A DNA stretch of 64,000 nucleotides. Origin: Oryzias latipes. Its lineage: Eukaryota > Chordata > Actinopteri > Beloniformes > Adrianichthyidae. Each line of letters starts with the position of its first letter. The first letter of the stretch is position 1. The translations under genes were made by a program, and so were the position numbers. The stretch is from NCBI RefSeq assembly GCF_002234675.1, contig NC_019872.2, positions 7,766,950 to 7,830,949 on the forward strand. The letters are read 5' to 3'. Shown here piece by piece: positions 2,642-64,000 of the stretch. A model generated the notes under the pieces. It worked only from the letters and a program-made list of their open reading frames with translations, was not told where the DNA came from and ran no database searches.

Positions 2642-4109
<1,468 letters not shown>

Positions 4110-10473: not shown

Positions 10474-24703
<14,230 letters not shown>

Positions 24704-49196: not shown

Positions 49197-50962
49197 AAAG
49201 ATGGAGAACATTTATATATTATAAAAAACAGCTTTAAATTGCATTTCTGGGTATTTCTTAATCAAATTCTTGTGAATCAGGAGCAGACAAAAAACAGCAT
49301 TGGAAAAAGCTTGTAGTTGTGATGTAGAAGCTACAATCGGCAGGCCACAAGCTCCATGCTCTGCTCCAGTCTGATGCACCCACTTGTAGACGACCAGATT
49401 CGACCTGGTGTCCGGCTCAAAACTGTACAGCTGGATATCTCCAATATTGCTCACTAGGCCTGGGCGAAAAATCATTTGAATGAATTAATTCAAATTTTTT
49501 GTTAAGGGCGATTTTTAAAAAATAACTAAATTGAGTTTTTGTGTAATGGCGCATTTTTGCCTCCCCAGAGCTTCCGTAGCGTTAGTTTCAGACGGCGGTA
49601 TGACAAAAGACAAACAACAACATCATTGCACCACGAAACAGCAAGGGACAACATGGCTACCAGTTGTTTGGAACTGGTTAGTTTGCTGCCACAGATGTGG
49701 AGGAAGAGACCCCCCCCATGCTGCAACATTTGCCCAAAGCCCACCACAGTCAAAGGAGGCAGCACCACAAACCTATTCCAACACCTGAGGGAAACCTTTT
49801 ATTACTGTTCTCCTTCACTCTATGGAAGGGATTCTGTAGCATAATTAAAAATAAAAGTCAAAACCAGAAATGCTTTTTCATTTTCAAAATGAAGCTGCAT
49901 TTTTTTTGACTCAAAATTAAAATGAAAAAACAATCCTTCAAAATGCTTTTTCCTTTGCTTCTTCAACACAGGTTTTTCTGTCACTTATTTAAAATGATAA
50001 TGAAAATAGTATTTGACATTTCATTTTCAAAATGTTCTCTGCTAAATGTGTAGCATAATTCATTTAGAAATGTCTAATTTGACGATTAAAATGGATTAAC
50101 AGAAGTGCTTTTCAATCTTCAAAATGAAACTGCATCAAATGTCTCAGAATTAAAATGAAAAATCAATACTTCAAAATGCTTTTTCATTTCTATTTAAAAA
50201 CCGCTTATTCTGTGTCATAATTAAAACGAAAATGCAAAGAGGGGATTGCATTTTCATTTTAACATCCACCCTGCAAACATCGCATTGCCCATTGTCGCAT
50301 ATCTCAATTCGAAAAAGCCTTTCCAGAGGGGGGGCGGGGCAATGACGTAGGCGCTATCTCCGTGTGTCCGGCTGCTAAGAGACAGACATGCTTGGAGCAG
50401 TGTTAGCGGTAGAGGAGAGGGCTTTGTGATGGTTGTACCTCCTGCTGCCTCATCACCGTGGTGATAAAAAAAGAACCCCACACAGTCACAGCTCTAGTTT
50501 ATATCTTGTGGGACGCAAAAAAATGCGACTTCTCCAGTACCGATAGCAGAACCGTTGAGGTCAGATCTTACGGATACTGCAGTCTTGAAGAATGGAATCG
50601 AGAAAAAATTGGAAATTGAATTAAAAAAAATGGAAAAACATGTGTGATTTAATTTTTAGGCCATATCGCCCAGCCCTATTGCTCACCATTTTTGTTGCAC
50701 TGCTAATGTTGGCTTGGGGTTGTGAGTGGTTATAAGAGGCTCCAAGCTAGCAAGACAGTGTGTAAACAGATGGATGGCGGGAAATGAGGGTGGACTTGCT
50801 CCACTCAAACAGTCCCGCCCATAACTCGGAGGAGAATTTGAATGAATTACTACGGCTTTGAAGGAACTGCCCTAGAAAACGACACTTTAAAAAAATTGGC
50901 TAAAACGGCACAACCATAATGGAAATGCCTTTACAATAGATCAAAAGATGATTCGAGTCAAA
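49197..50962 (-). mobile_element. MITE, copy 5, split by a hAT insertion
   Basis: The left half (49197-49454) and right half (50687-50962) together make one reverse-oriented family copy. They are interrupted at TTGCTCAC, which is duplicated on both sides of the inserted hAT element. Confidence 0.82.
49455..50678. mobile_element. hAT transposon derivative with BED-finger remnant
   Basis: 1224 bp with inverted ends TAGGCCTGGGCGA and TCGCCCAGCCCTA and an 8-bp duplication TTGCTCAC (49447-49454, 50679-50686). On the plus strand, 49722-49796 encodes CNICPKPTTVKGGSTTNL followed by FQHLRE, resembling the CxxC...HL part of a BED zinc finger of hAT transposases. The final histidine and the catalytic domain are gone, so it cannot move by itself. 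Confidence 0.85.
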
Positions 50963-52939
<1,977 letters not shown>

Positions 52940-53141
52940 CTCTAATCTGCTGCTGCAACATTCTGGGACAGCACACCTGCCACTTCCTACCAACACTAGA
53001 GGACCAGTAATAGACCCAAACCCCAAGTCCTTTCAGTAGGTGGTCACAGGTGTTCTTTGTAAACCGTGTCAGTCACACTCACCCACACTAGCAGAGTCAA
53101 AACTCCTAGCCTTCTTTAGCGCCCACTCAGTCCCTGTAAAC

Positions 53142-56100
53142 ATGGCCAGCAAGCTGTCCAAGTTTGGCAAAATGTTGCTGCGTCGCCGGGCATTAGACTG
53201 TTCTGGTGAAGAGACCCGCTTTGCCCGCTGCTTGTCCACTCTGGACCTCATTGCTTTGGGGGTGGGCTCCACGTTGGGCGCCGGCGTTTACGTCCTGGCT
53301 GGCGAGGTCGCCCGGGAGAAGGCGGGACCGGCTATTGTCCTCTGCTTCCTCATCGCCGCTCTATCCTCCATGCTGGCTGGTCTGTGCTACGCAGAGTTTG
53401 GCGCCCGGGTCCCAAAAACGGGGTCTGCGTACCTCTACAGCTACGTAACAGTCGGGGAAATCTGGGCCTTCATCACAGGGTGGAACCTCATCCTCTCGTA
53501 TGTAATAGGTGAGCTGCAATAAATAAATAAAAAAGACCTGGATGATGGACTCCCTGCCTGACCGTTGGTTTTATCCTCACAGGAACGGCCAGTGTGGCCA
53601 GGGCTTGGAGCTCAACCTTTGATAATTTGGTGGAGCAAAAGATCTCAAGCTTCTTCAAAGGCATCATGGAAATGAAGGTCCCGGGAAAGGTGCTGGCAGA
53701 GTACCCAGACCTGTTTGCCCTGATCCTTGTCCTCTTACTCTCTGGTGAGTTTCCTAAACCTCTAAAGATGATACACTCTACAATACATTTAAATACTTTC
53801 AAAGTATTGGTATTAGTTTTCTAAATGCTAACCAAACGGACAGAACAGTTGTTACACAAATCTTGCAGCTAATGTGGCCTGCCCTTAGTGTTAGAAAAAA
53901 CGCCTTTTGCACGGTTGATGTGGCCGAGTGATGGACCATCGGAGCTGTTAAAGTCTGACCTCATCCACCCACATAGCAGGATGTGTTGTTGCTGAGGAGG
54001 AATTTGTTCTCTTTCTGCTTTCAGGGCTTCTAGCTTTCGGTGTGAGCGAGTCTGCGCTGGTGAATAAAATCTTCACGGGTATCAATCTGGTGGTCCTGGG
54101 ATTCGTCATCATCTCTGGCTTTGTGAAGGGGAACACTGCCAACTGGAACCTTAAAGAAGAAGATTACATTACGTTCATAAATGCCACAAACAGCACCCAC
54201 AAGCCTTTGAAGTGAGTGTTTGATGTTGAGGAAAGATTCCAAAGTTTGAATGGGAACTGTGGTGCTAATCTGTTCTCTTTCTGATGCTTAGTGTGGAGAA
54301 GGACTTTGGTGTGGGCGGTTTTGCTCCGTTTGGCTTCACAGGAGTCTTGTCGGGCGCTGCCACCTGTTTCTATGCCTTTGTGGGCTTTGATTGCATCGCC
54401 ACAACAAGTGAGTGTTTTTTGTTTTCTGTGAGAACCTGGTGAAATGTCACAGAAAAGGACCTTCAGTTGCAAACGTAGGATTGTGTGCAACTTTGCAATG
54501 AAAAAAAAAACCTTTTTTTTCTCTGTTCTATCAGGTGAAGAGGCAAAGAACCCCATGCGCTCTATACCTATCGGCATCGTGGCCTCGCTGCTCATTTGCT
54601 TTTTTGCGTACTTTGGGGTGTCCGCTGCCCTGACTATGATGATGCCATACTATGAGCTGAATACCCAGAGTCCTCTGCCTGTAGCCTTCAGCTATGTCGG
54701 GTGGGGTCCTGCCAGATACATTGTGGCCTTTGGTTCTCTGTGCGCCCTGTCCACCAGGTATGGAAGGGAATCCAAATCTTGTCTGACAATCTTTTGAAAT
54801 GAAAATTGTAACACCGGTGCTGTTTTCTCAGCCTCCTAGGTTCCATGTTCCCAATGCCCCGTGTCATTTATGCGATGGCAGAGGACGGGCTGCTGTTCCG
54901 GGCTCTTTCCAAGATGAGTGAACGTACTAAAACCCCCGTCCTGGCAACCATAGTGTCTGGCATCGTTGCAGGTAAGAAGACGGTTGCTGGTTTCAGTTGT
55001 GTAGCTTCCTCATCATCTTGGCTCCAGGCAGCAGTCTGTCTTTGCTGTGTCTGTCTGTCAAGATCTGTCTGCACAGCAGCCTGTCTGTCAAGCTCTTTAG
55101 ATCAATAAAACCTTCTCAAGCAGCAAAAACGGCAGTTTCAGATGTGGAATGTTCTGAGCCCACTGGATTTTTCTAAAATGTGCTGTTCTCCAACAGCTCT
55201 GATGGCTTTTCTTTTTGACCTGGGAGCCCTGGTTGACCTCATGTCCATAGGAACTCTGCTAGCGTACTCCCTGGTGGCCATCTGCGTCCTAATTCTCAGG
55301 TAAGCCTCCTTTTATTTTCCCTAACCCCATTGTTAAAGACCCACTCTGAGGAAAATTGGGTTTTTAAAAATTTCTTGTGGCCTTTTTGTCACGATGAAGG
55401 ACTTGTATAAAGAAATTATGCTCAAAATTGCATTTTGAGAGCAGACAAAAAATGCTTATTGAAAAAGATTGTAGTTGTCACCTAGAAGCTCCCTGCTCTG
55501 CTCCATTCTTATGCATTCACTTGCAGACAAATACATCCTTGTACGTCTTTGTTTTCTGACTCTAAACTCTACGCCTGGATAGCTCCACCATTGCTCACTA
55601 TTTTTGTTGCACCAATAATGATAGGTTGGGGGGTGTGAGGGGCTGTAAGATAGCGGGAGTGCATGTAAACGGATGGGAAGAGGGGGCGGCCAACAGTTCC
55701 GCACATGTCACATGTCTTATCAACTACTGCCGCTCTACAGAAACTTGTGTACTAGAAAACAAAACGGGGTTTTTTCAGATTTTGGCTAAAAACGGCACAA
55801 TCAGGGGGCTACACGGTGGCGCAGTGGTTAGCACTCTTGCCTCACAGCAAGAAGGCCCCTGGTTCAACTCCCCGTGGGGGACGTGAAAAACACAACATCA
55901 ACGGGGGACCTTCCTGCATGCCTGGGTTCTCCCACCGTCCAAAAACATGCTTTGTAGGTTAATTGGTAACTCTAAATTGTCCCTAGGTGTGAGTGTGAAT
56001 GGGTGTGTGATTGTGGACACTCTACCCTGCGCCAGACTGGCGACCTGTCCAGGGTGCCCCCTGCCTTCGCCCACAAGTAACCGGGATAGGCTCCAGCAGC

Positions 56101-57158
56101 CCCGTGACCCCGAAAGGGAAAAACGGAATAGAAAAAGAATGAATGACAGCACAATCATAGTTCGGACCACTGGAAACGCTTTGACAATAGACCAAAGAGG
56201 ATCAACGTGGGACTTTAAAGCTGAACTCAGTTTCATGTGTAACTGACCCCTCTTACGCATGTGATCAGGTACCAGCCAGGCACCCTGAACTCATCCAGTC
56301 AGACGGAGAAGCTGATGGACGTGGAGAGGATCGAGAGCGGCGACGAGTACGGCATGGAGATGGACGACAAACCCCTGCGAGAGACCTTTACTGCCAAGCT
56401 GCTGTTTAGCCCCAGTGGAAAGATTCCAACTGAGATCTCTGGGACCATTGTTTACATTACCACTGCTGTTATTTGTAAGTTACCCTCCCATCCCCTGCTG
56501 TGCAGATATGAGCTCTAATGTAGTCCGAAGTGTCGGTGAGCTGACGATTTTTTGTCCCGCCTCTGCAGCTGTTTTCATCACTGTGCTGTGCATCATTCTG
56601 GCTAACTTTCTGCCGGAGCTGCTCAGAGGCCATCCGGCAGTGGTAGTCCCCTGCGCCATCCTGACTCTGCTCTGCGGCGTCTGTGTTGTCATCATCTGGA
56701 GGCAGCCTGAGAGCAAAGAGGCTCTCACCTTTAAGGTGGTCATGAGATCGGAGTTCTCCTCAAACGGGTGATCGGTTTGATGTTCACCCATGAGCTAAAT
56801 GATTCCTTTTTTCCTTTCAAGGTCCCTCTGCTTCCCTGGTTGCCTCTTTTCAGTGTTTTTGTCAACATCTACCTCATGATGCAGTTGGACGTCGCTACAT
56901 GGCTGCGATTTGCCGTCTGGATGGTCATCGGTGCGTGTGAACTTCCTTAATCCTGTCCTGAGGCGCCAGCATCTCGTTAACGAGTGTCTTTCTTCTCTCC
57001 CTCAAGGTTTTGCCATATACTTCCTCTACGGCATCAAAAACAGCAGCGAAAACGCCGACCGCTCGTTCCCACGCAAATACGAGCTCGCTTCACAAAACAA
57101 CAGCCCCGTTTATAAGGGCACCCCCGATGAGAGCAACCAAGAGGCCGGCAGCCTGTGA
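53142..57158 (+). CDS. slc7a3: Cationic amino acid transporter 3 (CAT-3, SLC7A3)
   Basis: Plasma-membrane uniporter for arginine, lysine and ornithine. Coding exons: 53142-53508, 53583-53744, 54025-54211, 54292-54407, 54535-54757, 54832-54971, 55197-55299, 56269-56474, 56569-56735, 56822-56930, 57007-57158; all phases join to 643 aa. The family core is plain: [20 protein letters not shown] in the first helix, the [19 protein letters not shown] segment, [45 protein letters not shown] and [20 protein letters not shown]. About 14 hydrophobic helices are expected. NATNSTHKP in the third extracellular loop offers glycosylation sites. SLC7A1 is the nearest alternative. The N-terminus, the [12 protein letters not shown] loop and the neighbourhood with il2rg and snx12 favour SLC7A3. 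Exon 5 ends with an A before GTGAGT, giving TTSEEAKNP where mammals have TTGEEA. Intron 8 contains a MITE with a SINE inside it. Confidence 0.88.
55334..56219 (-). mobile_element. MITE, copy 6, in slc7a3 intron 8, interrupted by a SINE
   Basis: Starts TTAAAGACCCACTCTGAGG and ends ATCAACGTGGGACTTTAAAG. A SINE at 55804-56148 splits it. Confidence 0.8.
55804..56148 (+). mobile_element. tRNA-derived SINE nested in the slc7a3 intronic MITE
   Basis: The head has an A box (GGTGGCGCAGTGGTTAGC) and a B-box-like GGTTCAACTCC. The body matches the copy at 23.1 kb. It is flanked by 9-bp duplications GCACAATCA at 55795-55803 and 56149-56157. Confidence 0.85.
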
Positions 57159-62674: not shown

Positions 62675-64000
62675 TCAGCAGAAGCACTGCCGGCTGCCCT
62701 TGGTGACCTCCTCGGAGGAGTGGACGGTGTTGGGAACAAATCCACTCTTGACTCCTTCCCAGCCGTCCTGGATCTTGATGTCACCATTCCGCACCAATTC
62801 GAAGATGTCCCTCGTCAGATCCACAAATGCCTTAAAATCAGAAGCAGAGCACTGCAAGTGTCATATCATGACATTGTAAAACCCTCAGTCTCACTACAAA
62901 CACGTTTTCGGCTATTTTAAAAGCCTTCCCAATGTCATTTTTAGACAAAATCAAAAACCTTGTGTCATTTTGTGGGACATAGTTTCTGCAGAGCAGCAGG
63001 AATTCATTACAAGTTCGGCTTTGAGTTGTGTGGGGGACTGTTTGTGCGGAGCAAGCCTGCCCCATTTCCCATCATCCCTTTATTTACACTCTCTCCTGAT
63101 AGCTTACAGCTTCTCAGAAGCCCAACCTGACATTACCAATGCAATAAAAATGGCGAGCAATGTGTCAAATGAAGCAAAAGACGGGGAAAAAAGTGTCACA
63201 TCTGGGCACTAACCTTCTCCACGTTGATGGCGTCCCGTGCAGACGTCTCCACGTAGCGCATCCCGTAAGCCCCCGCCAGCTTCTCTGCCTCGTGCTGGGT
63301 CACCTGACGCTGAGCCTCCAGGTCACACTTGTGGCCAACGAGCAGGAAGACGATGCTGTGCGGCTGGACGTGGCTCCGCGCCTCCTCCAGCCAGTTGTGG
63401 ACGTTTTGGAAGGAACGTCGGTTTGTGATGTCAAAAAGCAACAAACCCCCAACGGAGTTCCGATAGTAGGCCCTGGTGATGGACCTTAATACATGGATGT
63501 GGGATTAAAACTCAAAGCATCAGCTACACCAGTATTCTGTAATGTAAACTTAAAAAAGGATTCTAAAGCTTAATCACCTGGAAGACTGAAATGGAAGGAC
63601 TATAATGGTGTTAGTTGAAAAACACAGAATTTTAGCAACAGATTAAAATTCAGTCTATGGCAAAGACTTGGCTGGCTGTCAATCATTTCTCACATTTGTG
63701 CGGAAAGAAAAAAAATAGAAAATATGAACATTTAATAGTGTTTTATCACATTCCAACACTATTTTTTAACAGAAATTAAATTCAGATGTGAAACTATGGC
63801 TGCAGACAAAAGAATTTATTACGAATTGTTTTACTTTTTTTGTGGTTTTGAATTTTGTCTTCCTGAATGTCAGTGTCCTTTTTTTTTTTTTTTAACCTTA
63901 AGTTTAGGTCTTAGTATTAATAATATGAACTTTTTCTTACCTGAACCTCTCTTGTCCTGCAGTGTCCCAGATCTGCAGTTTGATCCTCTTTCCTGGTTCA
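62675..64000 (-). CDS. rab39b: RAB39B small GTPase, 3' part (5' end outside the window)
   Basis: Neuronal Rab GTPase of vesicle traffic and autophagy. Three coding pieces on the minus strand: 64000-63941 (partial), 63484-63214, 62830-62675. The first encodes EPGKRIKLQIWDTAGQERFR, with the G3 motif WDTAGQE. The second encodes SITRAYYRNSVGG, LLFDITNRRSFQNVHNWLEE, the guanine-base motif GHKCDL and the G5 motif ETSARDAINVEK. The third runs from AFVDLTRDIFELV and GWEGVKSGFVPN to the double-cysteine end QCFC, a prenylation signal. Sequence and length match RAB39B better than RAB39A. The G1 P-loop and switch I lie beyond the window. The intron between NVEK and AFVDL is not present in the two-exon human gene as I know it, and it consists mostly of a repeat. 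Confidence 0.93.
62831..63212 (-). other. Extra phase-0 intron of rab39b, mostly MITE-derived
   Basis: A 382-bp intron with donor GAGAAG/GTTAGT and acceptor TGATTTTAAG/GCATTT. About 300 bp of it (62877-63180) is a copy of the MITE family seen elsewhere in this window, inserted in reverse relative to the gene. Confidence 0.8.
62877..63180 (+). mobile_element. MITE, copy 7, forming most of a rab39b intron
   Basis: Shares GGACATAGTTTCTGCAGAGC, the GGGGACTGTTTGTGCGGAGC block, CCCATCATCCCTTTATTTAC and the AATGCAATAAAAATGGCGAG segment with other copies. The left terminus is diverged and the right part is shortened. Confidence 0.75.

Follow-up and report, generated by a model that had tools for sequence, protein, structure and literature searches.

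An extra intron in one of two medaka rab39b duplicates, largely occupied by a truncated MITE

Gene structure of rab39b at the window edge

The window, i.e. the whole stretch of 64,000 nucleotides from Oryzias latipes analysed here (C14:7766950-7830949), carries rab39b on the minus strand at its right edge. The gene is composed of the following parts:

63941..64000 within the window, minus strand: coding exon 1, in whole 215 nt (63941-64155), its ATG outside the window, at what corresponds to 64155
63485..63940, minus strand: intron 1, after QERF(R) at c.215, by exon length at the position of the mouse Rab39b intron
63214..63484, minus strand: coding exon 2, 271 nt, final residues ...INVEK
62831..63213, minus strand: extra intron, 383 nt, GTTAGT...TTTTAAG, phase 0, after c.486
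62675..62830, minus strand: coding exon 3, 156 nt including the stop codon TGA, AFVDL...QCFC

The spliced coding sequence of 215 + 271 + 156 nt encodes a protein of 213 amino acids with a PF00071 domain (201.3 bits). Its best match among solved structures is human RAB39B (PDB 6s5f, E 5.9e-125), with a gap-free identity of 88.8% (183/206 residues); Rab2B follows as a distant second (9.4e-55). Judged by its protein, the gene is the rab39b orthologue, orthology being defined here by the protein and not by gene structure. Passages of PMC9071400 describe mouse Rab39b as having two exons, one of 215 and the other of 427 bp, and the relevant part of PMC8760075 agrees. The C14 gene departs from this two-coding-exon structure. 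The intron after QERFR, which the first-pass annotation had also recognised, is kept at c.215 as in mouse, and a second intron occurs at c.486. Since 271 + 156 nt equal 427 nt and the 215 nt are kept, the mouse second exon is cut cleanly in the medaka gene, with codons neither gained nor lost.

The extra intron lies between NVEK and AFVDL and has canonical GT-AG ends (AAG/GTTAGT and TTTTAAG/G), as the first-pass annotation had read it; it is in phase 0. The start proposed there (62831) was correct, whereas the proposed end (63212) fell one nucleotide short of the donor G at 63213. Reading through from exon 2 into the intron yields NVEK-VSAQM-stop, and its predicted removal restores the reading frame, as in a spliceosomal intron; that the intron is removed in vivo is a prediction from these sequence features. 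AAGG occurs at both junctions, a repeat which is to be expected from the ordinary splice consensus as well. The donor ranked mid among five donors with a rough weight table, a score without evidential weight. Upstream of the main acceptor, at a distance of 21 nt, there is a candidate alternative AG in frame; its predicted use would add CSASDFK between NVEK and AFVDL.

Elsewhere in the window, Pfam was applied to 10 of the 88 ORFs of at least 90 amino acids and gave one hit above cut-off, PF13520 (amino-acid permease, E 3e-12), in the ORF at 53040-53519. Perfect microsatellites are present at 3598-3734, (TGC)45.7, and at 51764-51911, (AT)74. An Rfam scan of the window yielded nothing at gathering thresholds.

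The MITE fragment and its flanks

The extra intron can be divided into the following features, listed from donor to acceptor:

63162..63213, minus strand: donor-side stretch of 52 nt, no MITE homology detected, second copy in the genome not found
62887..63161, plus strand: MITE fragment, consensus 5-300 with one internal gap, the 5' 46% of the 638-bp element, inverted relative to the gene
62883..62886, plus strand: CCTC in place of the family's terminal TTAA
62852..62853, minus strand: AG of the candidate alternative acceptor (ACTTGCAG), open frame HLQCSASDFKAFVDL
62831..62882, minus strand: acceptor-side stretch, 52 nt long, containing the TTTTAAG acceptor and the usual branch-point zone, second copy in the genome not found

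According to the first-pass annotation, about 80% of the intron was a reverse copy of a MITE dispersed through the window. Orientation and dispersal were borne out: the fragment is inverted with respect to the gene, the family occurs both in the window and throughout the genome, and the match of the intron copy to the family consensus (85% identity over 231 bp, E 2e-71) is far beyond chance. The proportion had been set too high, as the supported match covers 275 of 383 nt (72%).

Our genome searches covered the 734-Mb assembly in 25 contigs. They returned 15,571 first-look candidates for the MITE, and all of the 40 that were scored matched. The 638-bp consensus, made from the 30 best-scoring of these 40 copies, has the inverted termini TTAAAG[AT]CCCACTCCAAT (TIR AG[AT]CCCACTCCAAT). 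One ATG-started frame of the element gave no Pfam match up to E 1. Among the 30 aligned old copies, 15 retain TTAA at the 5' end and 19 at the 3' end, with 11 copies having it at both. With copies 10-18% off the consensus, these counts fit a family whose target appears to be TTAA. The K2P distance of the intron copy is 0.172 (275 sites), compared to 0.098-0.176 (median 0.144) for the 30 best-scoring copies from which the consensus itself was made, and 0.141-0.204 for the other seven MITE pieces in the window. To judge from this divergence, the intron MITE is an ordinary, old member of its family.

Of its two termini the intron copy shows only the 5' one. Homology begins at 62887 with consensus position 5, practically the element's natural end, and is preceded by CCTC instead of TTAA. 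A C7 copy (L035) reads the same, so a variant element may be the source of the CCTC. The 3' half of the element (338 bp) is missing together with the 3' target copy. The break at consensus position 300 lies at nearly the same place as those of the window copy at 50.7 kb (301) and of a further copy, L007 (302). In the 50.7-kb copy the break is caused by a 1224-bp insertion at 49455-50678 with inverted ends TAGGGCTGGGCGA and TAGGCCTGGGCGA, which is flanked on both sides by the 8-bp duplication GTGAGCAA and splits the MITE into 50679-50958 and 49200-49454. We take this insertion to be hAT-like, the class being assigned from the 8-bp duplication. Because the two pieces at about 50 kb are one split copy, the number of MITEs in the window is one below the simple count. 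One possible route to the loss of the 3' half in the intron is a nested insertion with a subsequent deletion; a genome search with the donor flank gave no match supporting such a history. Another window copy (55333-56218) is interrupted at 55804-56145 by roughly 340 bp of another repeat, which is related to 23253-23479.

When the intron was aligned with genome-wide copies, as the first-pass annotation had proposed, the MITE match was recovered at 62887-63161, whereas the flanks up to the splice sites scored mostly at chance level. In local alignments against 12 MITE copies, with shuffles that preserved base composition only and not dinucleotides, 172 of 300 shuffles reached the best score of the donor flank (63162-63213), and 72 reached its mean score. 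The corresponding values for the acceptor flank (62831-62882) were 55 and 8 of 300, the latter being borderline and leaving room for a trace of MITE homology. Two multiple alignments had extended the homology to about 63195-63196; this found no support in local alignment, the best score of 63162-63196 being reached by 150 and the mean by 87 of 300 shuffles. Searching the genome for a second copy of 62831-62930 returned the sequence itself and one C7 locus matching only 62883-62930, and a search with 63150-63300 returned itself alone, a missing match being no proof that a sequence is rare.

The MITE's 5' terminus is thus separated from the acceptor end by 56 nt, and 52 nt lie between the MITE and the donor. 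At its usual distance, the branch point would fall into the 56 nt on the acceptor side, outside the MITE. Minus the MITE, a remainder of about 108 nt would be left that should still be able to make an intron, and introns of about this length are of usual size in fish. Since both splice sites are located in the non-MITE flanks and the remainder would still be a workable intron, the MITE is most likely the later arrival. The first-pass annotation had named two readings, intron gain by insertion of the transposon and later insertion into a fish-specific intron. The second is favoured by our data. The first fits poorly with an element that contains no splice site, has lost its 3' half and is bordered by 56 + 52 nt of other sequence.

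An intron born from the MITE would have arisen by insertion into the exon followed by splicing out of the element, its ends having been blurred later; for NTE-1 in notothenioid slc26a2, a birth of this kind is proposed in passages of PMC12357937. Such an origin would agree with the MITE share of 72%, with the finding that the related genes detected lack the intron (see below), with the AAGG at both junctions and with this published precedent from fish. As in NTE-1, to go by the same passages, the splice sites of a transposon-born intron are expected in the element or in its target duplication. In rab39b, they are neither in nor beside the MITE but 56 and 52 nt away from it, and the junction AAG|G differs from the TTAA by which the family appears to be flanked. 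Furthermore, the flanks are not former exon, as no codon is lost from the protein; with every residue of the protein kept, insertion of a MITE into the exon could not have left 108 nt of foreign sequence beside it. We therefore regard it as unlikely that the MITE gave birth to the intron. Even less probable, and in our view very unlikely, is a capture of the whole intron as filler DNA in a single event, e.g. during double-strand-break repair, with the MITE piece and its flanks already within. A captured filler would account for a truncated MITE next to unrelated flanks, and repair-based gain is discussed for fish introns in passages of PMC3151243. Against it, the fragment begins with the element's natural 5' end, as would seldom happen in a random capture, and the genome searches revealed no locus from which the flanks could have been taken.

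Related genes and the position of the intron

A protein search of the medaka genome (150 of 179 candidates scored) detected three further rab39b/rab42-type genes, located on C18, C11 and C16. An exon ends after QERFR in all four genes. The extra intron of the C14 gene is absent from each of the three related genes found in this search as well as from mouse Rab39b and can, as far as tested, rightly be called extra, as the first-pass annotation had done.

The C18 sister (C18:19844480-19850344) shows 90.1% identity to C14 rab39b and 89.3% to human RAB39B and reads NVEHAF without interruption. It possesses an extra intron of its own, 5436 nt in length and in phase 0 at RQ|VT (CAG|GTATGA...TTCCAG|GTG), which is absent from C14 rab39b. 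This intron of the C18 gene holds two weak MITE pieces (E 2e-8 and 2e-7). In the neighbourhood of each of the two sister genes, on C14 and on C18, lies a gene which we take to be rab38-like, the arrangement to be expected if the chromosome blocks are duplicates. The genes on C11 and C16 (56% and 52% identity), presumably rab42-like from their sequence features, read through at both the NVEK|AF and the RQ|VT places. No gene for rab39a was found among the 150 of 179 candidates scored, i.e. between the hits of 82-98% to rab39b and those of 52-54% to the rab42-like genes; rab39a may have been lost, missed or be missing from the assembly. Because the three related genes found and the mouse gene are without the intron, a gain on the C14 branch would be the shortest history, with one gain instead of several losses.

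The position of the intron is apparently shared with other small GTPases. In eight other small-GTPase genes of the same genome an exon appears to end in phase 0 at the codon equivalent to NVEK|AF. Seven of them come from 20 loci: three ral genes (NVDK), three rap1 genes (NVNE or NVLD) and one rab2-type gene (NVEE); the 20 loci had been picked for matches ending near this codon, so that eight genes are not a rate. The eighth, a rab35-like gene (NVEE), was one of four loci, among which the rab2-type gene was met again. The acceptor side was read for two of the eight, one ral and one rap1 gene. At rab7/rab9-like, rap2-like, rab8-like and rab14-like loci, no exon end was found at the equivalent codon. 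All these gene names are our assignments from sequence motifs.

This match of position is suggestive of an ancestral intron, short of proof. A phase-0 intron inherited from an early small-GTPase gene would have to be lost from mammalian RAB39B, from the C18 copy and from both putative rab42-like genes. Exon ends at the equivalent codon in eight other genes speak for such an inheritance; the need for several independent losses versus a single gain speaks against it. Moreover, in a survey of Rab genes 71 different intron positions were distinguished along 501 aligned nucleotides, most of them particular to one subfamily, according to passages of PMC3504004. With 71 positions in 501 nt, a uniformly random intron would land on a used position in about 1 of 7 cases, and oftener if proto-splice sites are preferred, so coincidence by chance or through proto-splice sites is not rare. 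We consider inheritance of the intron from an ancestral small-GTPase gene to be improbable, if the least so of the alternatives.

Origin of the intron and its significance

Together, we think it probable that an ordinary spliceosomal intron was gained after the duplication in one of the two rab39b copies, and that the MITE landed inside this intron later and decayed. From the sequence comparisons we infer both gain instead of loss and the order of events, the intron first and the MITE second. The intron would have been gained at an AAG|G proto-splice site, by a route which is unreadable from the present sequence. Subsequently, a MITE of the apparently TTAA-targeting family would have inserted into the intron, inverted relative to the gene, and a deletion would then have removed its 3' half. 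The MITE would have enlarged the intron, of which about 108 nt of non-MITE sequence remain, and would not have supplied the splice sites.

Intron gain is rare in vertebrates and raised in teleosts (PMC12357937), and its mechanism is debated. Introns 3 and 5 of notothenioid slc26a2 (Torii et al. 2025, PMC12357937) are, in the parts of that study concerned with them, likewise teleost-specific and consist largely of interspersed putative transposons. In slc26a2 intron 3, gt-ag lies within the direct and inverted repeats of the element, whereas the splice sites of the rab39b intron lie outside the MITE. For the slc26 family the same passages also report new introns at positions used by other family members, regarded as convergent. 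Passages of PMC3151243 describe extra introns in MC5R, MC2R and other GPCR genes of medaka and further percomorphs, the majority of them at proto-splice sites; several of those from the medaka/stickleback lineage contain pieces of repeats, as does the rab39b intron. These introns belong to a different gene family, and the passages do not show transposable elements making them. Some Introners are DNA elements with TIRs and TSDs which create introns, and Introners recur as introns (passages of PMC9860276). The rab39b intron differs from such transposon-born introns in having its splice sites outside the element, 56 and 52 nt away.

Lineage-specific introns bearing repeats in medaka and its kin are therefore already known, as are introns made by transposable elements in another teleost group, to the extent that the cited passages cover them (PMC3151243, PMC12357937). 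What is new is a further case, with two duplicates carrying two different extra introns and a transposable element without splice sites. We found no earlier account of the extra rab39b intron or of MITE-linked intron gain in medaka in the literature searched, which does not prove that there is none.

It is quite unlikely that the intron was made directly by transposition of the MITE, with its non-MITE ends representing a second, unrecognised element or repair filler. If true, this would make an abundant MITE family a vertebrate source of new introns, and the MITE would have placed the intron at a codon boundary to which other small-GTPase genes had come independently. With the probable history given above, i.e. 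an ordinary intron which later received a MITE, an intron that is mostly transposon need not have been made by that transposon, and the location of the splice sites has to be considered. The codon shared with other small GTPases offers a test case for repeated insertion at one position. The two copies of the disease-linked rab39b, each with a different extra intron, provide a compact natural comparison.
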